Below are positions 20,791 to 48,705 of a stretch of DNA of 64,000 nucleotides, piece by piece. Both the position numbers and the translations under genes were made by a program. The first letter of the stretch is position 1; each line of letters starts with the position of its first letter. The notes beneath the pieces were generated by a model. It had not been told where the DNA came from and did not search any database. It worked only from the letters and a program-made list of their open reading frames with translations. This DNA is from an uncultured Hyphomonas sp. (GTDB taxonomy: Bacteria; Pseudomonadota; Alphaproteobacteria; Caulobacterales; Hyphomonadaceae): positions 2,170,001-2,234,000 of the forward strand of contig NZ_OY782759.1 of the NCBI RefSeq assembly GCF_963678195.1, written 5' to 3'.

Positions 20791-20858
20791 CACGCATCCA
20801 GCCTTGACATTGGCTCGCCGACGCGGCCATCACTCGCGCCCTTGAAGAGGTATCCCGA

Positions 20859-23444
20859 ATGAAACTTGTCGTCGTCGAGTCTCCCGCGAAGGCCAAAACG
20901 ATCAACAAATATCTGGGCAAGGACTACAAAGTCCTGGCCTCCTACGGCCATATCCGGGACCTTCCCTCGAAGAATGGCTCGGTCGATCCCGACAATGATT
21001 TCGAGATGGTCTGGGAAGCGGATTCAAAGTCTTCCAAGCGCATTACCGACATCGCCAACGCGCTGAAAGAAGCCGACACGCTCGTCCTCGCGACCGACCC
21101 GGATCGCGAAGGGGAAGCCATTTCCTGGCACCTGATCGAAGCGCTGAAGAAGCGCCGGGCGCTCAAAAAGGATGTCGCCGTCGAACGCGTCGTGTTCAAC
21201 GCCATCACCAAGAACGCGGTCACCAAGGCGATGGAACAGCCGCGCCAGATCGATGCCGAACTGGTGGATGCCTACCTCGCCCGCCGGGCGCTGGACTATC
21301 TGGTCGGCTTCAACCTCTCCCCCGTCCTCTGGCGCAAGCTGCCGGGCTCCCGTTCGGCCGGCCGCGTGCAGTCGGTTGCCCTGCGCATCGTCTGCGACCG
21401 CGAGAACGAGATCGAGATGTTCAAGCCGCAGGAGTACTGGACCGTTGCGGCCGACCTGCGCGCGCCCAACGGCACGGACTTCCAGGCGCGCCTCCACGCG
21501 CTGGATGGCAAGACGCTGAAAAAGTTCACGCTTGGCGACAAGGGTGAGGCCGACAAGGCCCTCGAAGCGGTCCGCGTCGGCGGGTATTCTGTCAGCTCGG
21601 TTGAGGCCAAGCCTGTCAAGCGGAACCCGGCCCCGCCCTTCATCACTTCGACGCTGCAGCAGGAAGCGTCCCGCAAGCTGGGCTTCACCGCCAAGCGCAC
21701 CATGCAGGCCGCCCAGAAGCTCTACGAGGAAGGCCGCATCACCTATATGCGTACCGACGGCGTCAACATGGCCGAGGAAGCCTATGTCGCCGCCCGTTCG
21801 ATGATCCAGTCGAATTATGGCGCACGCTACCTGCCGGAAAAGACGCGCTACTATTCCTCCAAGGCCAAGAACGCTCAGGAAGCGCACGAAGCCATCCGCC
21901 CGACGGATTTCGATCTGCGGCCCGAACAGTACAATGGCGACGACGACCTGCGGAAACTCTACACGCTGGTCTGGCGCCGGGCTGTCGCGTCCCAGATGGA
22001 AGCGGCTATTTTCGAACGCACCACGATCGACATGTTGTCCAAAGACAAGCGGGCCCAGCTGCGCGCCAGCGGCCAGGTTCTGGTGTTCGACGGCTTCATC
22101 AAGCTCTACACCGAAGGTCACGACGCCGGGGACGATGATGACGACTCCGAAAACCGCCTGCCCAAAATGTCAGAAGGTGAGCATGCGGACCTTCTGAAGG
22201 CTGACGCCACCCAGCACTTCACCACGCCGCCACCGCGCTACACCGAAGCCTCGCTGGTCAAGCGGCTCGAAGAACTCGGCATCGGCCGCCCGTCGACCTA
22301 CGCTTCCACGCTCTCGACCCTGGAAGACCGCGGATATGTGCGTCTCGAAAGCAAGGCGCTGATCCCGGAAGACAAGGGCCGCCTTGTCACGGCCTTCCTC
22401 GAAAACTTCTTCCAGCGCTATGTCGAATACGACTTCACGGCCGGCCTTGAAGAGAAGCTGGACATCATTTCCGACGGCAAACTCGATTGGAAAGCTTTCC
22501 TGCACGAGTTCTGGAAGCAATTCGCCGACGACATCGGCCAGACGAAAGACCTTCGCGTCAGCGAAGTGCTCGACGCCCTCAACGACGCGCTCGCGGCGCA
22601 CGTCTTCCCGGACCATGACTCAGACGGCAATGTCATCGAACAGCCGCGCCTCTGCCCGCTCTGCAAGGAAGGCGAACTGTCGATCAAGGTCGGCCGGTTT
22701 GGCGCCTTCGTCGGATGCTCACGCCACCCGGATTGCAAATATACCCGCCAGTTCTCGTCCGATGGCGAGGAAGCCGGTTTTATCGATCCGGACGGGAACG
22801 AACTGGGCGTACACCCGGAAACGGGCGAAACCGTCTGGCTGAAGAGCGGACGTTTCGGGCCTTATGTCGAGATGGCCAATGGCGAGAAACCGAAACGCTC
22901 CTCGCTGACCAAGAATGATACGCCACAGACCCTGACGCTGGAACGCGCCGTCGAGCTTCTGTCCCTGCCCCGCGAAGTCGGTCCGCACCCGGAAGATGGC
23001 GAGATGATCTATGCGAACTTCGGCCGCTTCGGGCCGTACGTTCAGCACCACAAGACCTATGCGAACCTGAAAGACCCTGCCGACGTCTTCAATATCGGCC
23101 TCAACCGCGCCGTGACGCTGATCGAGGACAAGAAAGCGCGCGGCTCCAAGCGCGGCGGCGCCACCCCGCTGAAGACGCTGGGCGAGCATCCGGATGGCGG
23201 ACCGATCGAAGTCTATGAAGGCCGCTACGGCCCTTATGTGAAGCACGCCAAGACCAACGCCACCCTGCCCAAGGATGTGACGCCGGATGCCGTAACGCTG
23301 GAACAGGCCATTGAGCTGATCAACGCCAAGGCAGCGAAGGGCGGCAAGAAGAAGGCCCCGGCGAAGAAACCCGCTGCCAAGAAAAAGGCCCCCGCGAAGA
23401 AGAAGGCACCGGCCAAAAAGGCTGAAAAGCCTGACGAAGGCTGA
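20859..23444 (+). CDS. topA: DNA topoisomerase I
   Basis: 861 aa type IA enzyme that relaxes negative supercoils. TOPRIM domain at the start (MKLVVVESPAKAKTI, ATDPDREGEAISWHL), then the core with RSAGRVQSVALR and the catalytic Tyr in RITYMRTDG. After the core come a CPLC...CSRHPDC zinc finger and repeated topo-C modules (KSGRFGPYV, FGRFGPYVQ, EGRYGPYVK). The last 30 residues are a Lys/Ala/Pro run, which helps DNA binding in related enzymes. RBS GAGG lies 8 bases before ATG. In relatives topA usually follows dprA; here it follows lptG. Confidence 0.97.
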   Translation: MKLVVVESPAKAKTINKYLGKDYKVLASYGHIRDLPSKNGSVDPDNDFEMVWEADSKSSKRITDIANALKEADTLVLATDPDREGEAISWHLIEALKKRRALKKDVAVERVVFNAITKNAVTKAMEQPRQIDAELVDAYLARRALDYLVGFNLSPVLWRKLPGSRSAGRVQSVALRIVCDRENEIEMFKPQEYWTVAADLRAPNGTDFQARLHALDGKTLKKFTLGDKGEADKALEAVRVGGYSVSSVEAKPVKRNPAPPFITSTLQQEASRKLGFTAKRTMQAAQKLYEEGRITYMRTDGVNMAEEAYVAARSMIQSNYGARYLPEKTRYYSSKAKNAQEAHEAIRPTDFDLRPEQYNGDDDLRKLYTLVWRRAVASQMEAAIFERTTIDMLSKDKRAQLRASGQVLVFDGFIKLYTEGHDAGDDDDDSENRLPKMSEGEHADLLKADATQHFTTPPPRYTEASLVKRLEELGIGRPSTYASTLSTLEDRGYVRLESKALIPEDKGRLVTAFLENFFQRYVEYDFTAGLEEKLDIISDGKLDWKAFLHEFWKQFADDIGQTKDLRVSEVLDALNDALAAHVFPDHDSDGNVIEQPRLCPLCKEGELSIKVGRFGAFVGCSRHPDCKYTRQFSSDGEEAGFIDPDGNELGVHPETGETVWLKSGRFGPYVEMANGEKPKRSSLTKNDTPQTLTLERAVELLSLPREVGPHPEDGEMIYANFGRFGPYVQHHKTYANLKDPADVFNIGLNRAVTLIEDKKARGSKRGGATPLKTLGEHPDGGPIEVYEGRYGPYVKHAKTNATLPKDVTPDAVTLEQAIELINAKAAKGGKKKAPAKKPAAKKKAPAKKKAPAKKAEKPDEG

Positions 23445-23747
23445 TCGAACCTCAAACAGAGATTGAGCAAGAGCACCTCGAATCGTTTATCGGGCGAGGT
23501 ACTTTGCTCGGCACGAGGGCAACATTTCGAACTCCACGAAGCGCTTCACCTACACTTGAGCGTACTGACCAGTACATGGAGGCCCGCCTGGGCTCGTTCG
23601 TGTTGACACCTGTGGATGTGATGGCACTCCCGGCGGTCAACCAACATTTGGCCAACCTGCTGTCCGTGCGCCACAACTGGCGCATTGACAGGACCTTCAA
23701 TCAGTCACCAATAGATTGAACTGTAACCGCTGCGGGGTAATCGGAAA
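23445..23747. other. 303-base gap between topA and MtfA-like gene; hairpin and dyad
   Basis: No gene can be assigned with confidence. An imperfect hairpin spans 23465-23509 (GAGCAA..ACCTCG against CGAGGT..TTGCTC, 14-base loop) without a U-run. A dyad GTACTG-AC-CAGTAC lies at 23562-23575, operator-like. The plus frame at 23447-23719 is open for 90 codons and its last 47 codons (from ATG 23576) use codons much like the neighbours, but no ribosome site or family is visible. Confidence 0.5.
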
Positions 23748-24572
23748 TTGTCGGCAGATGCTCCATTAGAATCCTTGCCTGAAGGTGTTCAGGTAACGGT
23801 TGTATTGGCAGGACTTGTTATCACGGTCTTCCTTTCATGGTACTTCATGCGGCGTGCGCGCACCGGATTACCCTCCACGCTTTCCGAACGCGGAAAATTG
23901 CTGCTGGAGGAACGCATTCCCCTGGTGCGCCACCTTGGTGATGCGAACAAAGCCAGACTATTTGAGGCCGTGTCAGCACTGCGGAAAGTTGGCAGCTTCC
24001 AGTCACGTGTACCCACGACAAACGGTGGACAGGCTTTCATTGACATCCAGACGGACGATCAGGCCATCCTGTTCGGTCTGATGGGTCTTGCAATGCTTTA
24101 CCGCTCAGCGCCGGCACCAGATAATATATTCCCGCTGGTGCTGACGGGTGAAACTGTCGTCTCGACCGATCCGATCTACCGCGGAGAATTCAAGAAGGGG
24201 CGAATGAAGTTCATCAGCCGGGATGACTTGAACCTCGATCAGCAAGTTCATGCACTTGGGATCTCCCCCCTGGTTTTTCAGTTTGCGAAATGCCTCGACA
24301 CGCCTGAACTGGCACATGCAAAACCCGAGCACCGCGCCGAGTTCAACGCAATGCTGGATAGCCTCGATGCCGCGTATGAGAGGCTGGTTCTGGAACCAGC
24401 GCGAACCCTCCATGAAGAAACCGGCGAAGCGCAGGAATTCCTCACTGGGGTGGGATTCTTGCTTGAAGCTCAGAAGATGTACTTCGGCCCCAATGACGAG
24501 TTTATAAAGCTGGATGGTGAAGTCAGGGATGCATTGGCTGTTCTGTACGGCGAACGCCGCATTCTGAACTGA
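23748..24572 (+). CDS. Membrane-anchored MtfA-like protein lacking the HExxH zinc motif
   Basis: 274 aa. One N-terminal membrane segment (VTVVLAGLVITVFLSWYFM) then a cytoplasmic body. The order of blocks resembles MtfA (M90) peptidases: LLEERIPLVRHLGDANKARLF, AILFGLMGLAMLY, GRMKFISRDDL, then VFQFAKCLD where MtfA has HExxHxLD, and a final EFLTGVGFLLEA before VLYGERR. If this alignment holds, both zinc His and the catalytic Glu are gone. MtfA proteins bind the regulator Mlc and cleave peptides; this would be a binding-only form. Start is TTG 23748 (no ATG before the membrane segment). It separates topA from rnr, normally adjacent, and looks less GC-biased at third positions. Confidence 0.5.
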   Translation: MSADAPLESLPEGVQVTVVLAGLVITVFLSWYFMRRARTGLPSTLSERGKLLLEERIPLVRHLGDANKARLFEAVSALRKVGSFQSRVPTTNGGQAFIDIQTDDQAILFGLMGLAMLYRSAPAPDNIFPLVLTGETVVSTDPIYRGEFKKGRMKFISRDDLNLDQQVHALGISPLVFQFAKCLDTPELAHAKPEHRAEFNAMLDSLDAAYERLVLEPARTLHEETGEAQEFLTGVGFLLEAQKMYFGPNDEFIKLDGEVRDALAVLYGERRILN

Positions 24573-24623
24573 GAAGCCACGCCACCGCAAATCCCCCGCG
24601 CAATTCGGCGCGATTCGCCTTAT

Positions 24624-26903
24624 ATGGCGGTCATGACATTCCCTGACCGCCAGACTGTTCTGGACTTTCTTCGCGAGAACCCAAGCGCCACCACCAAGCA
24701 GGAAATCGCCCGCGGCCTTAAGCTGAAGGGCAAGGAACGCACGATTTTGCGTGAAATCCTGAAGGAAATGGAGGGCGACGGCACGCTGGAGCGCACCGGC
24801 AAACGCGCCTGGGCGCAGGCAGACCGGCCGCCGCCCACCGGTGTTGTTGAATTCACGCATCTCGATGGCGATGGCGAGCTGATCGGCAAATCCGTTGGCG
24901 ACAATGGCCTGTTCGGGCCGGAAATCCGCTATGCGGGCCCCTCCGGCAAACCGAAAGCCAAGGCGCCTGCCGTCGGCGATCGCGCCCTCTGCAAGATCTC
25001 AGAGCGTGACGGAGAATGGCTGGCCCGCGCCATCACCGTGTTCGAGAAACGCCTGTCCGACAAGCTGGTCGGCCTCTACAGCCAGACCCAGCGCGGCGGC
25101 AAGGTTGTCCCCTCCTCCCGCAAAGAGAAACGTGAATTCGTCATTCAGGAAGCTGACCGCAACGGCGCCGAGGAAGGCGATCTCGTCATCGCAGAGCCGA
25201 AGCCCGTCGGACGCCGGCAATACGGCCCGGCCTTCGGAATCGTCACCGAGGTCATCGGCCACATCACCGATCCGCGCTCAGCCAGCCTGCTGGCCATCCA
25301 CGCACACGACATTCCGACGGAATTCCCGGAAGAGGCCCTCGAACAGGCGCGCGACCCGAAACCGGCTGCGGCAGAGCGCGAAGACCTGACAGCGGTTCAG
25401 CTGATCACCATCGACCCCCACGATGCCCGCGACCATGACGATGCCGTCTGGGCCGAGGAGCTGAAGGATGGCTGGCGCGTGATCGTCGCGATTGCCGATG
25501 TGGCAGCTTATGTCACCGAAGGCTCGCCCCTCGACAAGGAGGCCCTGAAGCGAGGTAACTCCACCTATTTCCCAGACCGCGTTGTGCCCATGCTGCCGTT
25601 CGAACTGTCGGCGGACGAATGCTCCCTGCGTGAGGGCGAACTGCGCCGCTGTATGGCGGTGGAGATGGTGTTCGACAAATCCGGCACCAAACGCTCCCAC
25701 CGCTTCATCCGTGGCATGATGAAGTCTGCCGCCAAGCTTTCCTATGAGGAGGCTCAGGCCGCCATCGATGGGAAGCCGGGCGGCAAGGCGGAGGAATTGC
25801 TGGACAGCGTTCTGAAGCCGCTCTGGGGTGCCTATGCAGCTCTGACGAAGGCACGTGACAAGCGCAGCCCGCTGGACCTCGACCTGCCCGAACGCCGGAT
25901 CGTGTTCGACGAGGACGGCGAGATCCAGGGCATCATCGCCAAGGAGCGGCTGGACGCGCACCGCCTGATCGAAGAATTCATGATTCAGGCGAACGTCGCC
26001 GCCGCCGAGTCGCTGGAGAAAGCGAACAGCCCGCTGGTCTACCGCGTCCACGACGTGCCGAGCGACGCCAAGATCGCCGCCTTTGCGGAGTTCCTGCAGA
26101 CCATCGACATCAAATGGCATATCGGTGAGCGCCCGCAGACGCAGCGTTTCAACAAGCTGCTCGAAGACATTCGCGGCGGCGTCTATGACGAGATGGTCAC
26201 CCAGATGGTGCTGCGCTCTCAGGCACAGGCGATCTATTCGGAAGAGAACCTCGGCCATTTCGGCCTGAACCTGGCGAAGTATGCGCACTTTACCTCGCCG
26301 ATCCGCCGTTATGCAGACCTGATCGTCCACCGCGCCCTGATCCGGGCCCTGAAGCTCGGCCCGGACGGGCTGAGCGACCAGAATGCTGTGCGGCTGGAAG
26401 AAATCGCCGAGCACATCTCAACGACCGAACGCCGCTCCATGGCCGCTGAGCGCGAAGCCACAGACCGCTATCTCGCCATTTTCCTGGCCGACCGGGTCGG
26501 CGCAGAGTTCGAAGGCCGCATCATGGGCGTCACCGGCTCCGGCCTGTTCGTCGCCTTGGCAGGCTCCGGAGCAGACGGGTTCGTGCCGATCTCGTCCATC
26601 TCGGATGACTATTGGGTGCTCGATCAGGCCGCGATGGAAATCTACGCACGTGGCAGCGGCAAGACCTATTCCATGGGCCAGACCGTGCGGGTGCGCCTCA
26701 AGGAAGTCACACCGCTGCAGGGCGGCCTCCTGCTGGAAATGCTGTCGGAGCCCCAGCCTGCCCCCAAGGGCCGCGCTGAGGCGCGCAAGGCGGCGGACGC
26801 CGGCGGACGTTCCCCTCGCGGCAGGGGTGGACCTCCACGGCGCGGCAAGCCCAAATTCAATAAAAAGACGCTTCCGAAGCATAAACGGAGAAGCCGGAAA
26901 TGA
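24624..26903 (+). CDS. rnr: Ribonuclease R
   Basis: 759 aa processive 3'-5' exoribonuclease of the RNB family, able to degrade structured RNA. N-terminal winged-helix (VLDFLRENPSATTKQEIARGL), cold-shock domains, RNB catalytic domain with the Asp cluster TIDPHDARDHDDAVW near residue 265, GNSTYFPDRVVPMLP, and YAHFTSPIRRYADLIVHR; then an S1 domain (GRIMGVTGSGLFVAL) and a basic tail. ATG 24624 or 24633 could be used (three codons apart). Its stop overlaps the next ATG (ATGA). Confidence 0.96.
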   Translation: MAVMTFPDRQTVLDFLRENPSATTKQEIARGLKLKGKERTILREILKEMEGDGTLERTGKRAWAQADRPPPTGVVEFTHLDGDGELIGKSVGDNGLFGPEIRYAGPSGKPKAKAPAVGDRALCKISERDGEWLARAITVFEKRLSDKLVGLYSQTQRGGKVVPSSRKEKREFVIQEADRNGAEEGDLVIAEPKPVGRRQYGPAFGIVTEVIGHITDPRSASLLAIHAHDIPTEFPEEALEQARDPKPAAAEREDLTAVQLITIDPHDARDHDDAVWAEELKDGWRVIVAIADVAAYVTEGSPLDKEALKRGNSTYFPDRVVPMLPFELSADECSLREGELRRCMAVEMVFDKSGTKRSHRFIRGMMKSAAKLSYEEAQAAIDGKPGGKAEELLDSVLKPLWGAYAALTKARDKRSPLDLDLPERRIVFDEDGEIQGIIAKERLDAHRLIEEFMIQANVAAAESLEKANSPLVYRVHDVPSDAKIAAFAEFLQTIDIKWHIGERPQTQRFNKLLEDIRGGVYDEMVTQMVLRSQAQAIYSEENLGHFGLNLAKYAHFTSPIRRYADLIVHRALIRALKLGPDGLSDQNAVRLEEIAEHISTTERRSMAAEREATDRYLAIFLADRVGAEFEGRIMGVTGSGLFVALAGSGADGFVPISSISDDYWVLDQAAMEIYARGSGKTYSMGQTVRVRLKEVTPLQGGLLLEMLSEPQPAPKGRAEARKAADAGGRSPRGRGGPPRRGKPKFNKKTLPKHKRRSRK

Positions 26904-27700
26904 GCCGCGCCACCTCATCTGCCAAAAAGACCGAACGTGGCACGCCGGCGTCAGCTGAAAGCACCGGTAAGTCTGGTATGGTCATGATCAAGTCCGCTTT
27001 CGACAAGGAAAGCGACGACGAAGTCATCATCAAAGACCAGAAATCGCCGCGTCCGAAGGATGCTGCCACGCTGATTCTGATTCGCCGTGACGCCGAGAAA
27101 CCGCGCGTCCTGATGGGCAAACGCTCCGGCGGTCATGTCTTCATGCCGGACAAGTACGTCTTCCCCGGCGGCCGCGTGGACCCAGGCGATGGCCGCGCCG
27201 TCTCATGGTGCGAATTGCGGCCCGAAGTCGAGGCGAAACTGCGGATCAGCGCCCGTCGCCAGCCGCGGGCATTTGCTCTGACGGCGATCCGGGAAACCTT
27301 TGAAGAAACAGGGCTTTTGGTTGCGCGGCCGGCGGAAATGCCGGCATCTGCCCCGAAGGGCTGGGACCGGTTCCATGAGCTGGACGCCGCGCCTCACCTG
27401 TCCCCGCTCACCTTTATCGGACGGGCGGTCACGCCGCCTTACCGGCCACGCCGCTTCGATGCGCGCTTCTTCATGGCCGACGCCGAAGAAGCCCTGATCG
27501 ACGAGCGTCCGCCGGTCGACGGGGCCGAACTGTCAGACCTGCAATGGGTGACGCTGAAAGACGCCCACGACCTCGACCTGCCGAGCGTAACCCGCTTCAT
27601 GTTGGACGAGATCGATGCGCGCCTGAAGGCCAGGGATTACAAGGAAGGACCGCCCTTCCTGCGCTGGACGCGTTCCGGCCACAGCACAGAGCGGCTCTAG
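26900..27700 (+). CDS. NUDIX hydrolase with long insertion before the helix
   Basis: 266 aa. NUDIX enzymes cleave nucleoside diphosphates linked to another group. Here FPGGRVDPGD is followed about 30 residues later by AIRETFEETGLLV, so the usual GX5EX7REUXEEXGU box is split by an insertion (RPEVEAKLRISARRQPR), as in NUDT7/NUDT19-like coenzyme A diphosphatase relatives. Metal-binding RExxEE residues are intact. The first 45 residues are Lys/Ser-rich and poorly conserved; an internal Met near residue 27 could be the real start. Translationally coupled to rnr; substrate unknown. Confidence 0.85.
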   Translation: MSRATSSAKKTERGTPASAESTGKSGMVMIKSAFDKESDDEVIIKDQKSPRPKDAATLILIRRDAEKPRVLMGKRSGGHVFMPDKYVFPGGRVDPGDGRAVSWCELRPEVEAKLRISARRQPRAFALTAIRETFEETGLLVARPAEMPASAPKGWDRFHELDAAPHLSPLTFIGRAVTPPYRPRRFDARFFMADAEEALIDERPPVDGAELSDLQWVTLKDAHDLDLPSVTRFMLDEIDARLKARDYKEGPPFLRWTRSGHSTERL

Positions 27701-27787
27701 AACGGTAACGGGTGCTTGACTTCGCTCGCGCACCCCGCCATTAAGCCGCTTTCCGATTTCAGACGCTAGCACAAGCGAGCCCGCGCC

Positions 27788-27955
27788 ATGGCAAAACCCG
27801 CCACCATCAAGATCCGCCTCAACTCGACGGCTGACACCGGCTTCTTCTATGTGACCAAGAAGAACCCGCGCAACATGACCGAGAAAATGGTCAAGCGGAA
27901 GTACGATCCGATTGCCAAGAAGCACGTCGAGTTCAAAGAAGGTAAAATCAAGTAA
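27788..27955 (+). CDS. rpmG: 50S ribosomal protein L33
   Basis: 55 aa: [11 protein letters not shown]...[10 protein letters not shown]...[18 protein letters not shown], the Cys-free (non-zinc) form of L33. A weak promoter-like pair TTGACT (27716) and CATTAA (27739), 17 bases apart, precedes it. It is followed directly by a strong terminator. Downstream of rnr and NUDIX as in other alphaproteobacteria. Confidence 0.96.
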
Positions 27956-27980
27956 GCGCTTGATACTTCTGGACTTTTGA

Positions 27981-28010
27981 AAAGCCCGCTCCTCACCGAG
28001 CGGGCTTTTT
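27981..28010 (+). terminator. Rho-independent terminator after rpmG
   Basis: AAAGCCCGCT / AGCGGGCTTT, 10-base stem, 8-base loop, continuing into TTTTT. The U-run ends at the first base of the convergent MFS gene's stop codon. Confidence 0.93.
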
Positions 28011-29233
28011 CATTGGATCTCATCGCGGTGCAGATAGCGCGTCTTGCGGATCGCCGGGAAAAGGAACGACCAGGCCGCTGCAACGCCAATGGCGGCGGCG
28101 CCGCCTGCCACGACGGTGAACACCGCTCCGTAGAAGTGCGCCATGAAACCGGCGCGCGCTTCGCCCAGTTCGTTCGAGGCGCCGAGGAACACGGAATTCA
28201 CAGCATTCACTCGCCCGCGTACCTCGTCCGGTGTCCACAGCTGTAGCAGGATCTCGCGGATATAGACCGACACCATGTCGAAGGCACCGATCAGCGCCAG
28301 CGCAAGGATTGAGAGCCAGGCCAGGGTGGATGCCCCGAAGACCATGGTGGCAAGCCCGAACAGAGCCACACAGACAAACAGAATGACGCCAGCATGGTCA
28401 CGGATCGGAAAGGCCGTGATGATCCCGATCATGATCACAGCCCCCACGCCCGGCGCAGCGCGAAGCAGACCGAGCCCTGAAGGCCCTAGTTCCAGAATAT
28501 CGCGCGCATAGATCGGCAACAGCGCCACAGCTCCGCCGAGCAGGACAGCAAACAGGTCCAGAGAGATCGCGCCCAGCACCACCTTTTCTTTCCAGACATA
28601 AGAGAAACCACCGAGAAGCGTACGAATCGTCGTCGGCTCTTTCGCCCCCTTCTGCGCGGGCTTCGGGATCGTCAGTACGATCACCCCCGAAATGAGGAAA
28701 AGCGAGACGGCGGTCGTGTAGGCAACCGGCGCCCCGATGCCATAGATCAATCCACCTAGAACAGGCCCAAGGATAGACGCCAGTTGCCAGGATGCCGTGA
28801 TCCATCCCACGGCATTCGCGAAGTCTTCTTTCGGAACCAGATTGACTGCCAGACTCGACGATGCCGGCGAATAGAATGCCCTGGCAACGCCGAAGACTGT
28901 CAGCGTGGCGAGCACCCAGAATGGCTCAAACTTGCCCGTCAGGGCGAGCAGCAGGATGGCCAGCGCACAGGCCATCTCAACGAAGACTGCCAACCCCATG
29001 ACATTGCGGCGCCCGAACCGATCAGCCGTTACGCCCGTGACGACGACCAGTACAAGCGCCGGAAGGAACTGAACCAGCCCGATCCAGCCAAGCAGGGCCG
29101 CGTTCTGGGTCAGGTCATAGATCTGCCAGGCCACAGAGACCGAGACGATCTGGGCGCCGAGCGACGTGCAGAAGCGGGAAATGAAGTAGCGGCTGTAGGC
29201 TGAATGCCGGAACGCTGAAAACCTGTCGGTCAC
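28010..29233 (-). CDS. MFS transporter, EntS-like family
   Basis: 407 aa with about 12 membrane segments. The N-terminus (FRHSAYSRYFISRFCTSLGAQIVSVSVAWQIYDLT) and the loop TGVTADRFGRRNVM match the MFS_3 family, whose best-known member EntS exports enterobactin; later VRGRVNAVNSVFLGASNELGEARAG is the matching C-terminal loop. No siderophore genes are nearby, so the substrate is unknown. Start codon is GTG 29233 with AGGGGA upstream. Monocistronic and convergent with rpmG. Confidence 0.85.
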   Translation of the reverse strand: MTDRFSAFRHSAYSRYFISRFCTSLGAQIVSVSVAWQIYDLTQNAALLGWIGLVQFLPALVLVVVTGVTADRFGRRNVMGLAVFVEMACALAILLLALTGKFEPFWVLATLTVFGVARAFYSPASSSLAVNLVPKEDFANAVGWITASWQLASILGPVLGGLIYGIGAPVAYTTAVSLFLISGVIVLTIPKPAQKGAKEPTTIRTLLGGFSYVWKEKVVLGAISLDLFAVLLGGAVALLPIYARDILELGPSGLGLLRAAPGVGAVIMIGIITAFPIRDHAGVILFVCVALFGLATMVFGASTLAWLSILALALIGAFDMVSVYIREILLQLWTPDEVRGRVNAVNSVFLGASNELGEARAGFMAHFYGAVFTVVAGGAAAIGVAAAWSFLFPAIRKTRYLHRDEIQ

Positions 29234-29286
29234 GCCTTATCCCCTGAGCTGAGCGCCTCTGTGGCGACAGCCGGATGCCAAGTCAA

Positions 29287-30654: not shown

Positions 30655-31040
30655 GCCGCTTCCTTCGGCATGAGCGCTTCAACAGCCTTGATAAAGGTCA
30701 TGATCTGGATCGGCTTGGACAGATAGCCCTCACATCCTGCTTCGCGCACACGTTGCTCGTCTGCACGCATGGCAAAAGCTGTCACCGCAAGCACCGGGAT
30801 ATGGGCAACTTTCTCGTCATCCTTCAGCCAGCGCGTGATATCCAGTCCGGACACTTCAGGCAGCTGGATGTCCATGATGATGAGGTCCGGCTGCTCCCGG
30901 CGGGCAATTTCGACCGCCTTGGCGCCATCGCGGCACTGATAGGTTTCGTAGCCGTAAGCGTCCAACAGGTCGCAAAACAGGCGCATGTTGAGTTCGTTGT
31001 CCTCAACAACCAGCACTTTTCTGGCTTTTGCGTCTGCCAT
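30651..31040 (-). CDS. divK: Single-domain response regulator DivK
   Basis: 129 aa receiver with no output domain. VLVVEDNELNMRLFCDLLD supplies the acidic pair, MDIQLPEVSG the phospho-Asp at about 53, AVTAFAM the Thr, and YLSKPIQ the Lys. In Caulobacter DivK is phosphorylated by DivJ, dephosphorylated by PleC and controls CtrA through DivL/CckA. divK-pleD adjacency is diagnostic for this order and related alphaproteobacteria. A CtrA-like site lies 68-82 bases upstream. Confidence 0.96.
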   Translation of the reverse strand: MADAKARKVLVVEDNELNMRLFCDLLDAYGYETYQCRDGAKAVEIARREQPDLIIMDIQLPEVSGLDITRWLKDDEKVAHIPVLAVTAFAMRADEQRVREAGCEGYLSKPIQIMTFIKAVEALMPKEAA

Positions 31041-31107
31041 TTTTTCCCACGATTACGAGCGATTCGGAACGGACCTTACCGTACCAGACCAGCTATACGG
31101 CAAAAGC

Positions 31108-31122: not shown

Positions 31123-31150
31123 GGGTCTCTTCAGATTGCCGCCACCCCCG

Positions 31151-31165: not shown

Positions 31166-31173
31166 ATGGAACG

Positions 31174-38260: not shown

Positions 38261-38270
38261 GGCGCGAAGC

Positions 38271-39743: not shown

Positions 39744-39882
39744 CGTGGCGTATCTCCAGCAATTCTGACCGCCTGCTATGACGGCTTATGACGAAAGTTC
39801 AAGTCTCTGTGAGAGCGCTTGTCAGGAAGAAATCAGTTCGTCACACCATTGTGAGCCTTTAATTGCGCAGAAGGAGAGTGTG

Positions 39883-40347
39883 ATGCGCCCGAGTCTGGTC
39901 CTTTTCACAGCAATGATTGCCGTCACCGGCTGCACCTCAACAGCCGGCACCGAACCGAAGGCGAAAGGCGTAGAGAAATACGCCGATGACCCACGTCTGG
40001 GTGAGGAAGTCGACCGAATCTGCTTCGCGAGCAATATCGACAGCTTTGGTGACAACACGCGCGACACGTTCACCGTCCGGGAAGGCCGCGACTACTTCCT
40101 GATCGAGGTGTTCGGATCATGCCCGCCGCTCCAGCATGCAATGACCATGCGAATGGACTCGACCATGAATTGCCTTACCTCCGGCGATCATGTGATTGTG
40201 TCGGACTCCCTGACAAACAGCGGCAGCACCCCCTTCAGCAAGGAACGCTGCATGGTGAAATCCATCTACAAATGGGATCCGAAGGCTGGTGAGGCGGACA
40301 GCGAGTCTGACGAACAGGCAGCCGAACAAGCCCAGGACGAAAGCTAA
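39883..40347 (+). CDS. DUF6491-like lipoprotein
   Basis: 154 aa. Lipobox VTGC at residues 14-17 (MRPSLVLFTAMIAVTGC) after AAGGAGAG, so an outer or inner membrane lipoprotein. The body carries the DUF6491 pattern: ICFASNIDSF, a DYFLIEVFGSCPPLQHAM segment and a CLTSGDHVIV end; four Cys could form two disulfides. The last 20 residues are acidic Glu/Asp/Gln-rich. Function unknown. It lies in opposite orientation between gatC and gatA. ATG 39883 starts the signal sequence; the longer in-frame leader is not signal-like. Confidence 0.8.
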   Translation: MRPSLVLFTAMIAVTGCTSTAGTEPKAKGVEKYADDPRLGEEVDRICFASNIDSFGDNTRDTFTVREGRDYFLIEVFGSCPPLQHAMTMRMDSTMNCLTSGDHVIVSDSLTNSGSTPFSKERCMVKSIYKWDPKAGEADSESDEQAAEQAQDES

Positions 40348-40527
40348 ACTACGGTTGTGTTCGCCATGGTCTGGCGCTTTGACTTCCTGAATTCTGCGAA
40401 CATCAGGATTTCAAAGCCCAGATCATAGGAAGAGGCAGACAGCGATCGGCGCACCTATCAGCGTCATCAGGGAAACTGCCAGCTGAGCAATCTGATTCAA
40501 TTGCTACAGCGCGCATCCACCCAAATA

Positions 40528-40815
40528 CTACTCCACAGATTTCGGAACCACGAAGAAACCGTCTTCGGTACGGGGCGCATTGGCCAGCACCTGATCGGGA
40601 ATGTCGCCGTCGGTCACGACGTCTTCACGCATCGGCAGTTTGGTTTCGACCACCGAAGTCATCGGCTCCACGCCGTCAATGTCAACTTCGTTCAGCTGGT
40701 CGATCCAGCCGAGAATGCCGTTCAGTTCGCCGGCCAATTCTTCCAGATGCGCCTCGTCGACCGCGATGCGCGACAGGCGCGCAACCTTGCGAACATCGTC
40801 CTTCGTGACACTCAT
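40528..40815 (-). CDS. gatC: Asp-tRNA(Asn)/Glu-tRNA(Gln) amidotransferase subunit C
   Basis: 95 aa belt subunit that wraps GatA and Gat[23 protein letters not shown]...[19 protein letters not shown], then VEPMTSV and LRED-type [10 protein letters not shown] and a terminal FFVVPKSVE, all conserved. Divergent from ruvX with a 74-base gap, the usual alphaproteobacterial arrangement. Confidence 0.96.
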
Positions 40816-40889
40816 GCGAACTCTCCGAAATTGCTGCGGCCGGAATACGCCATAGGCAACGCCCCATCAAGGCGCTATGTGGGCAGCCC

Positions 40890-41348
40890 ATGCCACTCGT
40901 TGATGTCGCCGATTTCCCCTCTGCCGGTCCCCTGCTCGGGCTTGACCCCGGGACGAAGACAATCGGCGTCGCGTCCTGCGACGCCCTGCGCATGATTGCC
41001 AGTCCGGTGGAAACCATTCCCAAGGGCCGGAAACTCCCGCCCGTGCTGGAGCGCCTGTTCGCGCTTTATGATGAGCGGAACGCTGTCGGACTGGTGCTTG
41101 GCCTTCCCCTCAACATGGATGGCAGCGAAGGCCCTCGCGCGCAGTCGGTCCGGGCGCTTGCCTGGAATATCCTGAAATACCGCGATGTGCCAATCCTGCT
41201 GCAGGACGAGCGCCTTTCCACAGCAGAAGCCGAATGGGCCATGCTGGAGGCCGACCTGTCCCGCAAACGCCGGGCCGAGCGCATAGACGCATCCGCAGCA
41301 GCGATCATCCTCAAATCGGCTCTGGAACGGCTGGAGCGCGGCGCATGA
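40890..41348 (+). CDS. ruvX: Putative Holliday-junction resolvase / pre-16S rRNA nuclease
   Basis: 152 aa YqgF/RuvX family with RNase H fold: [17 protein letters not shown] (first acidic residue), [36 protein letters not shown] and a late [10 protein letters not shown]. YqgF matures the 16S rRNA 5' end in E. coli; the resolvase role is less certain. Coupled by ATGA to the permease gene. Confidence 0.93.
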
Positions 41349-42271
41349 GCGGATTTCTTTATGCCCTGCTGCCGGTCATTGCGATTGTCACGCTCGGCCA
41401 TGTGCTCTCGGTCCGCAAATGGATTCCGACCGAGAGCTGGCGCGCCATTGAGCGGCTGTCTTATGTTGTCCTGTTTCCGGCTCTCATCGTCCGGACCCTC
41501 GCCAACGCCCCGTTTGAAACAGCCCCCTGGCGCCTGGCGGGCGCATTGATCCTGGCGCAGTTTGCCCTCGCAGGCGTTGGCTGGCTTGGGCGGTTCCTGC
41601 CGGGTATGCCGCGGCCGGCGGTCGGGTCGGTCATTCAGTCGAATGTCCGGTGGAACACGATGATCGGCCTCTCGATTGGCAGCCTTCTGTTCGGACAGGA
41701 CGGCCTCGCCTTGGTCACCATCGCCGCCGCCGCCATGATTCCGACGGCCAATGTCCTGTCGGTGTATGCGTTGATCGCCCATGCCGACCGCCCGCACGGC
41801 CCTGCGCCCAAGCCGATTCTGGCCCTTGTCCGCAATCCGATCGTGCTTGCCTGTGCAGCAGGACTTACGCTGGCGGCCGCCAATGTCGAATTGCCGGAGC
41901 TTCTGGACGACAGTCTGGGCATTCTGGGTGATGCAGCCCTCGCGCTCGGCCTGCTGTCCGCCGGCGCCGGTGTGGATTTGTCCGCCCTGCGCCGGGCCGG
42001 GCCGCGTACTTTCTCCTGGTCTCTCGTCAGGCTCGTAGGACTGCCCGTCTTTGCCGTGGGATTCGGCCTATTGCTTGGGCTGTCTGGCATTCCCCTGACC
42101 ATCGCCGTGATCTGCGCCGCGACGCCGACCGCGACATCCTCCTACATTCTTGCCCGGGAACTGGGCGGGGACGCGCCACTCGCCGCCAACCTGATCGCGG
42201 TCGAGACGGTCCTAGCCATGATCACGATGCCGCTTCTCTACCTCGCAGTGATGCAGCTTGCTTCGGCCTGA
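41345..42271 (+). CDS. AEC family permease
   Basis: 308 aa with about ten membrane segments ([38 protein letters not shown]; and so on), auxin-efflux-carrier family. These export or import organic anions such as malonate or unknown metabolites. Characteristic [11 protein letters not shown] and the C-terminal [17 protein letters not shown] are visible. ATG 41345 overlaps the ruvX stop; earlier in-frame starts lie inside ruvX. Confidence 0.88.
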
Positions 42272-42326
42272 GGGCTTGAAGCCCGGCGGAATCGGGCCTA
42301 AACCGCCAAAAATCGAAAGGGCCTCC

Positions 42327-43274
42327 ATGAACCGGGCGGCATATCACTACAGCTTCGATCACGAGCACCTGCTCAGTATTGAAGGGCTTTCACCTCTCGA
42401 TATTACCCATATTCTGGACCTTGCAGATCGCTACGCCGAGGCGACCCGCGCGGGTATCCGGCCGGATCCTGTGCTCAAGGGCAAGGTTGTGGTGAACCTG
42501 TTCTTCGAGAACTCCACGCGGACCATGAGCAGTTTCGAAATCGCCGCCCGCCGCCTCGGTGCGGACGTGATTTCGATGCCTGTTGCCGCGTCCAGTGTGA
42601 AGAAAGGCGAAACGCTGATCGACACCGCGATGACGCTGAACGCCATGAAACCGGACGCCCTGATCGTCCGGCATTCGGCATCTGGCGGGCCGAAACTCCT
42701 TTCCCGCAAGGTCGACTGCGCCGTCATCAATGCTGGCGATGGAACGCATCAACACCCGACACAGGGCCTGCTCGACACGCTCACCATCCGGCGCACCAAG
42801 GGACGGATTGAAGGCCTGAAAGTGGTCATCTGCGGTGACATTGCTCACTCCCGGGTGGCCCGGTCGACAACGCAGGCGCTTCACCTGATGGGCGCCGAAG
42901 TGCACCTTTGTGCACCGCGTACGCTGCTGCCGTCCGGCACTGAAACCTGGGGCGCGGCAAGTGCGACGACCGACTTCGACAAAGCCCTGAAAGGCGCAGA
43001 CATCGTTATGATGCTGCGCCTGCAGCTGGAACGGATGGACGGCGCATTCCTGCCGAGCCGCCGCGAATACTTCAGCTATTTCGGCCTGACAAAGGACCGG
43101 CTCGCACTGGCCAAACCGGATGCGACGGTGATGCATCCCGGCCCGATGAACCGGGGAATCGAGATTGAAAGCGCAATTGCTGACGGCGAACAGTCCGTCA
43201 TCACGGAACAAGTCGAGATGGGCGTCGCCGTCCGCGAAGCCGTGCTTCACCTTCTAGCGGGAGGGCACGCATGA
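42327..43274 (+). CDS. pyrB: Aspartate carbamoyltransferase
   Basis: 315 aa; joins carbamoyl phosphate and aspartate in pyrimidine synthesis. [23 protein letters not shown] holds the STRT phosphate loop, [14 protein letters not shown] the second, then [10 protein letters not shown] and [10 protein letters not shown] near the end. ATG 42327 follows GAAAGGG. Its stop overlaps the next ATG (ATGA), the arrangement of PyrB with a non-catalytic dihydroorotase-like partner in Pseudomonas-type enzymes. Confidence 0.96.
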
Positions 43275-44563
43275 GCCTCAGCATCTACAATGCCCGCCTG
43301 CTCGACCCGGCCAGCGGACTGGATGAAACCGGCGCAATCCTGCTTGACCGGGGCAAGATCAAGGAAATCGCCAAAGGTCAGACCTCGCCTCATGCGGACG
43401 CAGCTAACGCCATCGATGCGGCGGGTTTATGCCTCGCCCCCGGTCTGATCGACCTTCGCGTCAAAACAGGCGAGCCGGGCATCGAGCAAAAAGAGACACT
43501 GGCCACAGCCTCACGTTCTGCAGTCGCTGGCGGAATTACCAGTTTCGTCGTCATGCCCGACACACGGCCCGTTATAGATGATATGGCGCTGGTCAGGTTC
43601 GTCATGGACACGGCCAAAGCCAATGCCGCCGCTCGCATTTATCCGGCGGGCGCCCTGACAACCGGTCTGGAAGGCAGTGCGATGGCCGAGATCGGGCTGA
43701 TGGCCAGATCAGGCGCGATCCTGTTCACGAACGGCGATATACCGGTTGCGAACGCCTCTATCCTGAAACGTGCAATGGCATACGCCGCCAGTCTCGGGGC
43801 CACGATCATGTCGCGCCCGGATGAGCGGTCTCTTTCAGGCTCCGGCGTGATGAATGCCGGAGAACTCGCCGGACGCATGGGCTTGCCCGGAATCCCCGTC
43901 GAGGCGGAATGGATCGGCGCAATGCGCGATACTTCACTGGCCGAAGCAACGGGATGCACCCTGATCCTTGATCAGGTTTCCACACCGCGCACCGTGGCAA
44001 TCGCCATGGAAGCCCGCAAGCGCGGAACAAAAGTATTTACAACCGCTGCTGCGCACAGCTTCTTTTTCAATGAACTGGATGTCGGGGACTATCTGACCTA
44101 CTGCAAGGTCAACCCTCCGTTCCGGGACGAAGAGAGTCGCCTGGGGCTGATCGAGGCACTGAAGAACGGACAGATCGATGCTGTCGTGTCCGCTCACGAT
44201 CCTCAGCCACCGGAAGAAAAGCGCCTGCCATTCGGCGAGGCTGCTTTCGGGGCGGCCGGACTGGAAACCGTGCTACCCGCGATGCTGAGCCTGGTTCACG
44301 ACGGCCCGCTTAATATACTGGAGGCGCTGGCGCCCATAACCTGCAGGCCTGCCGATATGCTGGGCCTGCCGCAAGGCCGTCTCGCGAAGAACGCACCGGC
44401 AGACCTCATTCTCTTCGATCCTGGCAAGCCCTGGCTGTGCGAACGTGAGCACTTGGGTTCACGCTCTACCAACTCGCCATTCGACGGACGGCGCCTGCAG
44501 GGCCGCGTCTTGCGGACTTTTGTCGGCGGAGAGGAAGTCTTTGCGCATGCGAGCCTCGCCTGA
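43271..44563 (+). CDS. pyrC': Catalytically inactive dihydroorotase-like subunit PyrC'
   Basis: 430 aa, class I dihydroorotase fold, but the metal site is gone. The usual GLIDLHVHLREPG is [13 protein letters not shown] (both His replaced), IVHCED becomes MSRPDE, the HVST His is QVST and TDHAPH is SAHDPQ. The rest of the family pattern ([35 protein letters not shown]) is kept, so it is selected for folding rather than catalysis. Immediate coupling to pyrB fits the non-catalytic PyrC' that scaffolds ATCase in Pseudomonas. The active dihydroorotase must be elsewhere. Confidence 0.88.
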
Positions 44564-44623
44564 GAAGGCTTGCCCGGACACTCATCTCTGCCTACCACTT
44601 AAACGTGTTTCCGGGAGTTGCGC

Positions 44624-45256
44624 ATGGACGCATATCTTGTTTTTCCGCTTGCCGCACTGGCCGGCTACCTCGCCGGTTCAATCCCGTTTGGGCTCCTGCT
44701 GACACGGGCAGCCGGGCTGGGAGACATCCGTCAGGTCGGCTCCGGCAATATTGGTGCGACAAACGTTCTGCGCACCGGCCGCAAGGACCTGGCGCTTGCG
44801 ACGCTTCTGCTCGATAGCCTGAAAGCCGGCCTCGTTGCGCTGGGATTTGGCCTGATGGGCGGCGCAGAGCTTGGCCTTGTTGCCGGGGCGGCGGCTTTTG
44901 TCGGGCATTGTTACCCCGTCTGGCTCGGCTTCAAGGGCGGCAAAGGCGTTGCAACTTTCGCCGGCCTGCTGCCGTTTGTGTCTTTGCCCGCCTTCTATGT
45001 GGCAGCACCTGTGTGGTTGAGCATTTTCGCGATCACACGGATTTCTTCCCTTGCGGCCCTGACTGCCGCAGCGCTCGTCGCACCTGGCGCTTGGGTCGTT
45101 GAGGAATTGATGCACCGGCCACACAACTGGTTTGTGCTTCTCGGACTGGCAGGTTTGTCGGTATTTGTCTTCTGGACCCATCGCGCCAATCTCGGCCGCC
45201 TTCTGAAAGGCACTGAGCCGCGCTTTGGAAGCTCAAAAGCGAAGCCGGACGCATGA
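44624..45256 (+). CDS. plsY: Acyl-phosphate glycerol-3-phosphate acyltransferase
   Basis: 210 aa integral membrane enzyme, first acylation of phospholipid synthesis. GYLAGSIPFGLLLTR, GSGNIGATNVLRTG and GHCYPVWLGFKGGKGVAT (the three conserved loops) are all seen, with about six to seven hydrophobic segments. ATG 44624 was chosen over TTG 44618 since GGGAG then sits at proper spacing. Four-base overlap with dprA. Confidence 0.94.
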   Translation: MDAYLVFPLAALAGYLAGSIPFGLLLTRAAGLGDIRQVGSGNIGATNVLRTGRKDLALATLLLDSLKAGLVALGFGLMGGAELGLVAGAAAFVGHCYPVWLGFKGGKGVATFAGLLPFVSLPAFYVAAPVWLSIFAITRISSLAALTAAALVAPGAWVVEELMHRPHNWFVLLGLAGLSVFVFWTHRANLGRLLKGTEPRFGSSKAKPDA

Positions 45257-46350
45257 CTTCTGACAGCGAAAGGCTGGACTGGATTCGTCTCGCCAGGACC
45301 CACGGGATAGGACCTGTCAGCTTTTTTCAGCTCATTCGCCGCTTTGGTTCCGCCAGTGCCGCGCTGGACGCCCTTCCAGAACTATCTGCCCGCTCACGCA
45401 AGGGGCGTCCGCTTCAGCCTCCGGAACGCCAGCTTGTCGAGCAGGAGCTGGACGCTGCCAATCGATATGGCGCTCGTCTCGTTCTCAGCTCCGAACCGGA
45501 CTATCCGCCGCTTCTGAATGATCTTGAGCCGCCCCCGCCTGTCCTCACCCTGCTGGGACAGGCAGACCTTGCATCCCGGCCAACCGTTGCGATTGTCGGA
45601 GCGCGTAACGCGTCTGCTGCAGGCCGAAAGATTGCACGCGATATGGCAGCGGAACTTGGCCGGAATGGGTTCACCATCGTGTCCGGTCTGGCTCTGGGCA
45701 TCGATGGCGAAGCACATGCGGCAAGCATAGAAACAGGCACGATCGCAGTGCTGGGCGGCGCAATCGACCATGTGTACCCACCACAACACAAGCGCCTCTA
45801 CGCTGAGATTGCAGCTTCTGGCCTGATTGTTTCCGAAAGCCCGTTTGGCTACCGGGCCAAGGCGCAGGATTTTCCACGCCGCAACAGGATCATCACCGGA
45901 ATGTCCCTTGGGGTCGTGGTTGTGGAGGCCGCTGAACGTTCCGGATCGCTGATTTCAGCACGGGTCGCCGGAGAACAGGGGCGCGAAGTCATGGCCGTGC
46001 CCGGCTCTCCCCTGGATCCACGCGCGGCGGGAACAAACAGCCTTCTTCACCAGGGCGCAACGCTTGTCCGTCATGCGGACGACATATTGGACATTCTTGC
46101 GACGCTTGACCGGCGCCAGGTGTGCGCGCCACCTCCGCGCCCGTTCGAATTCGACCCGGACGCCGGGGAGCCGAGCGAATCGGAATTGCATCGGGTGCTG
46201 GAGGCACTGTCACCTCACCCAATGCCAATCGACGAAATTGCACGCGCCAGCAGCCTGCCTGCTTCGCGTTGCGCAGCCGTCCTATTGGAGCTTGAATTGT
46301 CCGGAGAAGCCCAGACTTTGCCAGGCGGACTGGCCGCCAGGGCATTTTGA
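45253..46350 (+). CDS. dprA: DNA processing protein DprA
   Basis: 365 aa. Loads RecA on incoming single strands in transformation; also common in non-competent bacteria. N-terminal SAM-like helices (RLARTHGIGPVSFFQLIRRFG), Rossmann core (VAIVGARNASAAGRKIARDMA, ALGIDGEAHAASIETGTIAVLGGAIDHVYP, SESPFGYRAKAQDFPRRNRIITGMS), then a C-terminal winged helix (EALSPHPMPIDEIA...LELSGEAQTLPGG). In many alphaproteobacteria topA follows; here lptD does. A perfect palindrome CACACGTGTG lies 9 bases past its stop. Confidence 0.95.
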   Translation: MTSDSERLDWIRLARTHGIGPVSFFQLIRRFGSASAALDALPELSARSRKGRPLQPPERQLVEQELDAANRYGARLVLSSEPDYPPLLNDLEPPPPVLTLLGQADLASRPTVAIVGARNASAAGRKIARDMAAELGRNGFTIVSGLALGIDGEAHAASIETGTIAVLGGAIDHVYPPQHKRLYAEIAASGLIVSESPFGYRAKAQDFPRRNRIITGMSLGVVVVEAAERSGSLISARVAGEQGREVMAVPGSPLDPRAAGTNSLLHQGATLVRHADDILDILATLDRRQVCAPPPRPFEFDPDAGEPSESELHRVLEALSPHPMPIDEIARASSLPASRCAAVLLELELSGEAQTLPGGLAARAF

Positions 46351-46518
46351 TCAGACGGCACACGTGTGGCCAAGCTGCACCGGCTGGGTGCCGAAAAAAT
46401 CACTCATCCGCGCTCCGTGGCTGGACGATGCCGGGGACAGCCTCTAAGCCTCAGACACCGAGACAGAATTCCGTATTCCGCAGCCGGCGCTGCCGGGGCA
46501 AAACCGAGGTAGCCCGAA

Positions 46519-48705
46519 TTGGCCAACTGGTACCATTACGCTGCAGCCCTGGCCCTTGCCGCATCCCCGTCATTCGGGGCGGTTGCGCAGGAAAGTAGCG
46601 CGCCAGATGCGACGGCCAGTTCGGAACAGGTCGTCCTCGAAGCTGACTATGTTTATGAGTTGCGGGACGAGAACTCCATCGTCGCGGAAGGCAATGTAGA
46701 GGCGCTCTATGACGGGCGAATCCTGCGCGCTGACCGGCTTGTTTACAACCGGACCACCGAGCGCGTCCGGGCGACCGGAAATGTCGTTATCATCGAAACA
46801 GACGGCTCCCAGCAATTTTCTGATGAAGTCGAAGTCGGTTCCAATCTCTCGGATGGATACGCGATCGGCTATTCGGCCCGTCTGACCGACGGCTCGACCA
46901 TTGTGGCAAATTCAGCCATCCGCCAGCCGGACGGCATAAACGCGATGGATCAGGTCATTTATACGGCCTGCCCTATCTGTGAGGCCAAGGGCCAGACACC
47001 GACATGGTCCCTGCGGGCCCGCCGCGCTGTGCTGGACCAGGAAACCCAGATGATTTCCTATCGCGACGCGGTTCTGGAAGTCATGGGCATTCCGGTGTTC
47101 TACTTCCCCTATCTGGCGCACCCGGACCCCACGTCTGACCGGCGCTCCGGCCTGATGATCCCATCCGCCGGATTCTCGTCAAAGCTCGGCGCGTTTTACC
47201 AGCAGCCCTATTACTGGGCGATCTCGGACTCCTCGGACCTGACGATCGCGCCGCTGATCACGGAAAACGTCAATCCGATGCTGGAACTCGATTACCGCAA
47301 GCGGTTCTATTCGGGTGCGATCAACATAAATACCAGCATCACACGGGAAAAAGACTTCGACAGCGACGGCGAGAAGTTTGGCGAGGAAAAGTGGCGCGGC
47401 CATTTGTATGGCAGTGGCAAGTTCGCACTGACAGAAGAGTGGCAATGGGGCTTCGGTGTCGAAACCCAGACCGACGATCTGTATGACCGCCGCTATGACA
47501 TTGACGGGCAAGGCGATAAACGCGGGATCTATCAGAGTCAGCCACGTCGACTCCTGTCCCAGCTATACGCCGTGGGCCAGGGCGACTCTTACTACACCGA
47601 CGTTTCCCTTCTCTCGATACAGGGCCTTCGTGCAAGCGATGCCGATGGCAGCCTACCGACTGTCACACCTTTGCTGTTCAGCGAAAAATACTGGGACCTC
47701 GGCGATTACGGCTTTGCCAGCGTGAACGCCTCAACTGCCATTCTGCGCCGCGATGTCGGCGATGACAGCCAGCGCGTCAGCGTTGGGGCAGACTGGTCGA
47801 CATACAAGATTCTGCCCGGCGGCTTTACGTTCGAGCCTTTTGCAGAACTGCGCGGTGATTATTATCAACTCGATCAGAAAGGCATCGAAGACGACAACGC
47901 ATCGAGGCTGGTCGGCAATACCGGAGCACGCCTCGCCTATCCGATGATCCGTCCCGGCAAGACGGTGGACATCATGCTTGAGCCGGAAGTCATGGCCGCA
48001 TGGGGCACGTCCAATTCGAATGACCCGATCATCCCGAATGAAGATGCCCTGTTATTCGAAATGGATGAAACTGTCCTCTTCGATGCGAACACGGTTGCCG
48101 GTTATGACCTTTACGAAGGTGACGGGAAAATCTCTGCCGGGCTGACAGCTCGGGCAGTCTGGAAAGAGGGCCCGGAACTTTCTGCCACTGTCGGCCGGAG
48201 ATGGCGGTCCCGGCCAGACCCAAGCTTTGAAAAAGTCACCAACCTCGATGGCACAACATCCGACTGGGTGGCCGCGGCGACTGCGGATTTCGGCAAGGCC
48301 TTGCGCATCGATACACGGGTCCGGCTTGATGAAGACGGGCTGGAACTGAACCGGATCGATACCCGCCTGTCCACAAAGTCTTCCCGATGGCGCGCAACTG
48401 GCCAGTATTACAAAATCAGCGAACGGCTGAACCCGCAGCAGGAGGAAGACGAAGGTTTCTTCATGACCGGAGAATTCCGGATTACAGAACGCTACTCCTT
48501 CATCTACGGCCAACTGCGCGACATCGCGAACAATCGGAACGCCCGAAAGGATTTCGGTATCGCATATGAAGACGATTGTTCACGCCTGGAACTGGTCTAC
48601 AGCCGCACGGAACTACAGGACCGCACGCAAGGTCCGTCCGAAAACATTCAGATTCGCTTTTCTCTCAAAACACTCGGCCAGTTCGGCTCCAGCGAATTCG
48701 ATTGA
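46519..48705 (+). CDS. lptD: LPS assembly protein LptD
   Basis: 728 aa outer membrane beta-barrel that inserts LPS with LptE. Signal peptide (YHYAAALALAASPSFGAVAQ), then the OstA/LptA-like jellyroll (VLEADYVYELRDENSIVAEGNVEALYDGRILRADRL) and the TACPICEAKGQTPTWSLRARRAV segment with a CxxC pair; the barrel from about residue 210 opens with FYFPYLAHPDPTSDRRSGLMIPS. No in-frame ATG precedes the signal peptide, so the start is TTG 46519 after GAGGT. The C-terminal aromatic FGSSEFD end is barrel-like. Followed by surA, pdxA and rsmA. Confidence 0.94.
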   Translation: MANWYHYAAALALAASPSFGAVAQESSAPDATASSEQVVLEADYVYELRDENSIVAEGNVEALYDGRILRADRLVYNRTTERVRATGNVVIIETDGSQQFSDEVEVGSNLSDGYAIGYSARLTDGSTIVANSAIRQPDGINAMDQVIYTACPICEAKGQTPTWSLRARRAVLDQETQMISYRDAVLEVMGIPVFYFPYLAHPDPTSDRRSGLMIPSAGFSSKLGAFYQQPYYWAISDSSDLTIAPLITENVNPMLELDYRKRFYSGAININTSITREKDFDSDGEKFGEEKWRGHLYGSGKFALTEEWQWGFGVETQTDDLYDRRYDIDGQGDKRGIYQSQPRRLLSQLYAVGQGDSYYTDVSLLSIQGLRASDADGSLPTVTPLLFSEKYWDLGDYGFASVNASTAILRRDVGDDSQRVSVGADWSTYKILPGGFTFEPFAELRGDYYQLDQKGIEDDNASRLVGNTGARLAYPMIRPGKTVDIMLEPEVMAAWGTSNSNDPIIPNEDALLFEMDETVLFDANTVAGYDLYEGDGKISAGLTARAVWKEGPELSATVGRRWRSRPDPSFEKVTNLDGTTSDWVAAATADFGKALRIDTRVRLDEDGLELNRIDTRLSTKSSRWRATGQYYKISERLNPQQEEDEGFFMTGEFRITERYSFIYGQLRDIANNRNARKDFGIAYEDDCSRLELVYSRTELQDRTQGPSENIQIRFSLKTLGQFGSSEFD

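Follow-up and report, generated by a model that had tools for sequence, protein, structure and literature searches.

Core genes between lptG and lptD in Hyphomonas: a rotated cluster very probably produced by at least two separate exchanges

Block interchange and transposition can be reproduced by two double cut-and-join steps, and one account describes them with a circular intermediate (PMC2683817). The gene block considered here, in an uncultured Hyphomonas sp., resembles such block interchange: segments swap places, their orientation is kept, four joints change, and two steps suffice. It also resembles a genomic island or integrated element in that a well-delimited stretch separates genes that are normally neighbours. 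The rearrangement is of a known kind with a readable history, and it is a good shared-derived marker; no prior report of the lptG–topA/dprA–lptD rearrangement was found in the literature among the matches listed. A block seemingly inserted whole can result from two exchanges.

The window, meaning the whole stretch of DNA analysed (64,000 bases), corresponds to positions 2,170,001–2,234,000 in a genome of 3,672,159 bases that consists of one contig (G000). Its LptD is 97% identical to that of H. jannaschiana VP2 and to that of a Hyphomonas MAG. pepA (window positions 16942–18405, Peptidase_M17) precedes lptF on the strand opposite to lptF–lptG. The pair lptF–lptG (18527..20790, plus strand; NCBIfam TIGR04407/TIGR04408) forms the left side of junction 1, the lptG–topA boundary (20791..20858), and lptD-surA-pdxA-rsmA (46519..51984, plus strand) forms the right side of junction 2, the dprA–lptD boundary (46351..46518). 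Between them, segment C (20859..35739) carries topA, rnr, a NUDIX gene, an MFS gene, pleD and divK (the last three on the minus strand), then dinB, rid, gdpd, a femAB-like gene and a HIT-domain gene (“hit”). Segment B (35743..46350) carries gatB and gatA (both minus strand), DUF6491, ruvX, aec, pyrB, pyrC, plsY and dprA. By coordinates, junction 3, the hit–gatB boundary, is the three bases 35740..35742 between convergent stops.

Family scans back lptF, lptG, topA, rnr, pleD, dinB, gatB, gatA, pyrB, pyrC, plsY, dprA and lptD. RNase R (rnr) next to TopA and the PyrB, PyrC, PlsY and DprA families are all confirmed, as are SurA, PdxA and RsmA on the lptD side; ruvX, divK and the NUDIX gene are also identified in the block. 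LptF and LptD score under the curated cut-offs and are assigned by match and place. Scans of 25 ORFs in the block, 5 of them without any family match, gave no integrase, recombinase or transposase, and the window holds no tRNA. GC content (2 kb windows) is 0.573–0.634 inside the block versus 0.565–0.646 outside, with no odd composition.

The older arrangement can be read in relatives. Of 24 order-level genomes (G037–G060), 19 have dprA and topA on the same strand and at most 1.3 kb apart; the exceptions are G047, G048, G049, G056 and G060. lptD was sought in 36 order-level genomes; among the 26 loci cut, lptG is directly upstream in 21 and dprA in none, and the other five show no lptG within the 1.5 kb examined. 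In the related genera g15, g16, g30 and g33 (15 of 20 genomes examined), lptG precedes lptD in 15/15 and dprA precedes topA in 11/15; the non-conforming four either give no dprA match (G189, G196 and G199, all of g15) or have no topA in the 1.5 kb after dprA (G192). The outgroup G043 carries, on one contig, the linear order gatB-gatA-...-aec-pyrB-pyrC-plsY-dprA-topA-rnr-NUDIX-pleD-divK-dinB-rid-femAB-hit. Compared with the window, the order of segment B is identical, as is that of segment C, gdpd apart, and both gatB...dprA and topA...hit keep their internal order and strand. Block order and strand are likewise kept in G132 and G167, with some genes missing. The comparison establishes the older state: lptG–lptD at one place and L-gatB...dprA-topA...hit-clpA at another, where L denotes the genes outside gatB.

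The swapped junctions reported in the preliminary description (lptG into topA, dprA into lptD) thus hold up in both the family scans and the relatives. Given the G043 cluster and the orders in order-level genomes and related genera, its assumed ancestral order (lptG–lptD, dprA–topA) was right, and so was its view of the block as a circular permutation: topA...hit followed by gatB...dprA is the old cluster, intact in G043, in rotated form. By comparison with relatives, the junctions are more than chance.

Two side observations concern dprA. It is separated from topA by 18 kb in G049 (f2, g10) and by hundreds of kb in G048, G056 and G060 (f5, g9), and these separations are probably independent changes. 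Decay or loss of dprA also recurs in the family (L035 9766–10001, L039, L040, L042, L043, G123, G189, G196, G199): the gene is fragmentary in G123, Hyphomonas sp. CY54-11-8 gives no dprA match between plsY and lptD, and several others keep only fragments.

The new junctions are widespread. Among 33 named lptD loci, which include Hyphomonas, Henriciella and other Hyphomonadaceae, the upstream gene is dprA in 29 (some fragmentary), plsY in 1 and lptG in 2; one locus begins within lptD. lptG precedes topA in all 30 topA loci cut (37 genus genomes searched), and dprA leads into lptD in all 20 dprA loci cut (10 from Hyphomonas, 10 from genus g14). An event shared by near relatives would be old, as had been allowed at the outset, and the junctions are indeed common to several genera. 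TopA of genus g32 is 69–71% identical to that of the window, which makes the first exchange an old one. The lptG–topA and dprA–lptD joints serve as a shared-derived marker that includes g32, of use where sequence trees waver; the hit–gatB joint is such a gene-order marker for Hyphomonas, Henriciella and g31.

Some lineages depart from this arrangement. In one Hyphomonas locus (L028, genome G014, 1501–5603), pyrB-pyrC directly follows topA, and rnr to aec are absent between them; this is probably a later change within the block. In g34 the block is scattered and dprA–lptD is kept (G183 contigs C38, C36 and C3; G185 = L246). G183 has no lptG within 13.5 kb before topA, and no hit lies within 1.5 kb of gatB in either G183 or G185.

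Genus g32 (7 genomes, of which G175, G177 and G181 were read further) bears on the order of steps. dprA leads into lptD in 7/7, with gatB 7–10 kb outside dprA in 7/7, and lptG leads into topA in the three read further. In these three, hit is followed by one other gene and then by clpA and dac, which follow hit likewise in G043, G132 and G167, and the hit–gatB joint is absent. In G181 both pieces lie on one contig and one strand, ~200 kb apart, in the order lptG-topA...hit-clpA, ~77 kb, L, ~119 kb, gatB...dprA-lptD. The internal order of the L genes is kept; because ~119 kb separates L from gatB, g32 is not an exact intermediate. The lptG–topA/dprA–lptD pair demonstrably appears without hit–gatB. 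Since g32 has the pair while hit is still beside clpA, the pair exchange would have come first and hit would have met gatB later. The gene beside gatB in g32 (N1) was considered as a scar partner, prompted by a homologue near clpA in Henriciella; it was dropped, the homologue being a PAPS-reductase-family gene with ~50% identity on the opposite side of clpA.

The position of g32 was examined in two trees, one of nine genes (28 rows, many gaps, g32 poorly placed) and one of 5 of those 9 genes (18 of the 28 rows). A clade of Hyphomonas, the Henriciella-like g14, g31, g34 and g29, with g32 excluded, has support of 100/100 in both. g32 is sister to this clade with 87.8/87 in the five-gene tree and 13.1/52 in the nine-gene tree. 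In the AU test the sister placement is preferred, grouping g32 with g15/g16 is rejected (p 0.032), and the test does not reject g32 at the base of the family (p 0.185).

The third joint has its own distribution. hit adjoins gatB in the window (G000), in G062, G095, G166, G152 and G174, and in the named loci L056, L058, L059 and L060; in g29 the contig ends, which makes it uninformative. In this genome the flanks of the old cluster are now neighbours ~1.13 Mb from the block, in old order and orientation: dac (minus) and clpA (plus) lie within 1,051,138–1,056,063 of the genome, followed by 4.7 kb of other genes, an RcnB-like gene (minus) and an RF-1-domain gene (plus) ending at 1,061,880. This is the Hirschia arrangement minus gatB...hit. 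The site in G019 is the same; in G183 the RF-1-domain gene comes after clpA, then L itself and the gene next to it on the L side. Block interchange calls for such a healed donor site with its flanks in the old orientation; it is found in 3 of the 10 clade genomes examined (G000, G019 and G183, two of them close kin) and was not seen in the 20 kb examined around clpA in G016, G063, G062, G095, G150, G166 and G174. L itself lies elsewhere in this genome, ~25 kb before lptG. Of the extra genes that separate clpA from the RcnB-like gene at the healed site (G000 1056194–1060699, L320), the first is a PF00144 (Beta-lactamase) family member. clpS is confirmed in G062 only; ORF Rf2156574 is on the opposite strand to clpS.

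With segment A defined as lptD...L, B as gatB...dprA and C as topA...hit, the change amounts to A-B-C becoming C-B-A. Both loci are taken to have started on the same strand because of G132, G167, G173 and G187, in which lptD precedes dprA on one strand by ~57, ~70, ~314 and ~55 kb, respectively; in G043 the two loci are on opposite strands. Enumeration from the same-strand start gives four changed joints, two sufficient cut-and-join steps and exactly two shortest routes. One frees B+C first, as the circle of the preliminary description; the other first makes lptG–topA and dprA–lptD and frees A+B. Of the four joints that mark the intermediate of the second route, g32 has three; it lacks every new joint of the intermediate on the first route.

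Very probably, the block is ordinary core chromosome that at least two separate exchanges rearranged in the ancestry of Hyphomonas, the first making lptG–topA and dprA–lptD and a later one making hit–gatB. The first step, as ordered by g32 and the tree, would have left hit with clpA. The second would have taken place in the clade that unites Hyphomonas and Henriciella with the genera nearest to them, joining hit to gatB and leaving the L genes beside clpA. The 25.7 kb unit would then have formed in place, by loss of the DNA between hit and gatB, and would not have arrived whole. Neither exchange would need a mobile element or a repeat, and each may have been an inversion or the excision and re-entry of a circle. 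Points that weigh against the account are the ~119 kb between L and gatB in G181, the differing support for the position of g32 in the two trees, the healed site in 3 of 10 clade genomes, and G183, where topA lacks lptG and gatB lacks hit. If the start resembled Hirschia, with the two loci on the same strand and lptD lying 57 kb ahead of dprA, the shortest path via a stage like g32 would excise the complementary stretch lptD...dprA, not topA...dprA; lptD...dprA measures ~60 kb in Hirschia coordinates and carries envelope and translation genes. Its re-entry in rotated order is suggested by the g32 order L...gatB...dprA-lptD-D. That both exchanges went through free circles, lptD...dprA leaving and re-entering rotated and the hit-to-gatB DNA later leaving with its ends joined (the L–clpA site), is a tentative proposal, on balance somewhat unlikely.

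Several other histories lead to the same final order. The block had been described as a 25.7 kb unit inserted as such. On this model gatB...hit was cut out as one circle, which joined hit to gatB and healed the donor site, and the circle was opened at dprA/topA and entered a single time between lptG and lptD. It accounts exactly for the final order and for the healed donor site, the latter not known to the preliminary description, and only one other two-step route is as short; however, it needs hit–gatB and the healed site first, while g32 has the pair of joints first, with hit still beside clpA. The predicted order, hit–gatB before lptG–topA/dprA–lptD, is thus not what g32 displays, assuming that g32 is no reversal; saving the model requires g32 to have undone hit–gatB and rejoined hit to clpA, and a single insertion is quite improbable. 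A larger circle (>200 kb), running from topA via hit, clpA, L and gatB to dprA, could instead have entered between lptG and lptD first, with the hit–gatB stretch lost later. It has the same step order as the two-exchange account and differs only in the segment that moved, and in G181 a single strand of one contig carries the pieces in precisely this sequence. Yet the same order follows if lptD...dprA was excised and re-entered farther along, and the 119 kb that part L from gatB show that g32 was rearranged further; this version is unlikely. Inversions are the commonest bacterial rearrangement, and a chain of plain inversions is compatible with the preferred step order. From opposite-strand loci as in G043, two inversions suffice (derived by hand); from the same-strand start of G132, G167, G173 and G187, however, inversions alone need three steps, and of the two step pairs found, neither includes a stage like g32. 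A two-inversion account loses weight through these four genomes and through the single strand of the G181 pieces; an inversion chain of some kind is still a real possibility, short of an even chance.

As for recombination at a short direct repeat, two 14-mers had been pointed out, one per edge, and their positions and 13/14 identity were correctly given: the first (20847–20860) spans the topA ribosome site and start, and the second (46506–46519) spans the ribosome site of lptD and reaches its TTG start. With the variable base as N and at most one mismatch, a scan of the 3,672,159-base genome finds only these two sites, and the reversed pattern gives 1. In a pairwise comparison of 64 gene starts from this genome (2,016 pairs, 54 bases compared), topA–lptD alone reaches 13/14, and as a pair fixed in advance this match is unusual. 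Against a role as the footprint of the event stands the distribution in kin: GAGGTATCCCGAAT is exact at topA in 3/30 Hyphomonas loci (L003–L005, L003 being this genome) and GAGGTAGCCCGAAT at lptD in 3/35 loci (L033, L034 and L066, the last being this genome; 43 lptD loci were read and the 35 with a match reaching residue 1 counted), yet whole genera share the junctions. The conserved part at topA is the ribosome site GAGGT (28/30 Hyphomonas loci). Limited to the closest kin, the repeat is a poor candidate trace of an exchange common to several genera; it was rejected as a recombination site despite being the best-matching gene-start pair, the suggested role in insertion is unsupported, and placement of the block by the repeat is extremely improbable. 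The 14-base match at the edges looks like coincidence, and an edge repeat can mislead. The odd TTG start of lptD (46519) does lie in the 14-mer, as remarked earlier, but does not depend on it: TTG is found in 24 of the 28 loci L033–L050 and L066–L075, which for the most part lack the repeat, and GTG in the remaining 4. A mobile element was considered as well and rejected, there being no such gene among the block ORFs scanned, no tRNA in the window and no sign in the composition.

Set against known systems, the block is unlike a genomic island in consisting of core housekeeping genes of normal composition, with no integrase or transposase seen and no conserved edge repeat; the conserved flanking direct repeats of such islands are absent here. 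It is closer to ordinary core-gene rearrangement in bacterial chromosomes, as PMC2483231 presents it, in that core genes are involved, the breaks fall between genes and no foreign genes are seen; it differs in its outcome, a circularly permuted cluster within the conserved lptG–lptD pair. Unlike block interchange in PMC2683817, the present case has a relative that keeps one step, which makes the order readable; a free circle is a putative intermediate in this comparison of present-day genomes. If both exchanges did pass through free circles, this locus would give a natural example of block interchange by way of circles, as models assume it, and living relatives would preserve the order of its steps.
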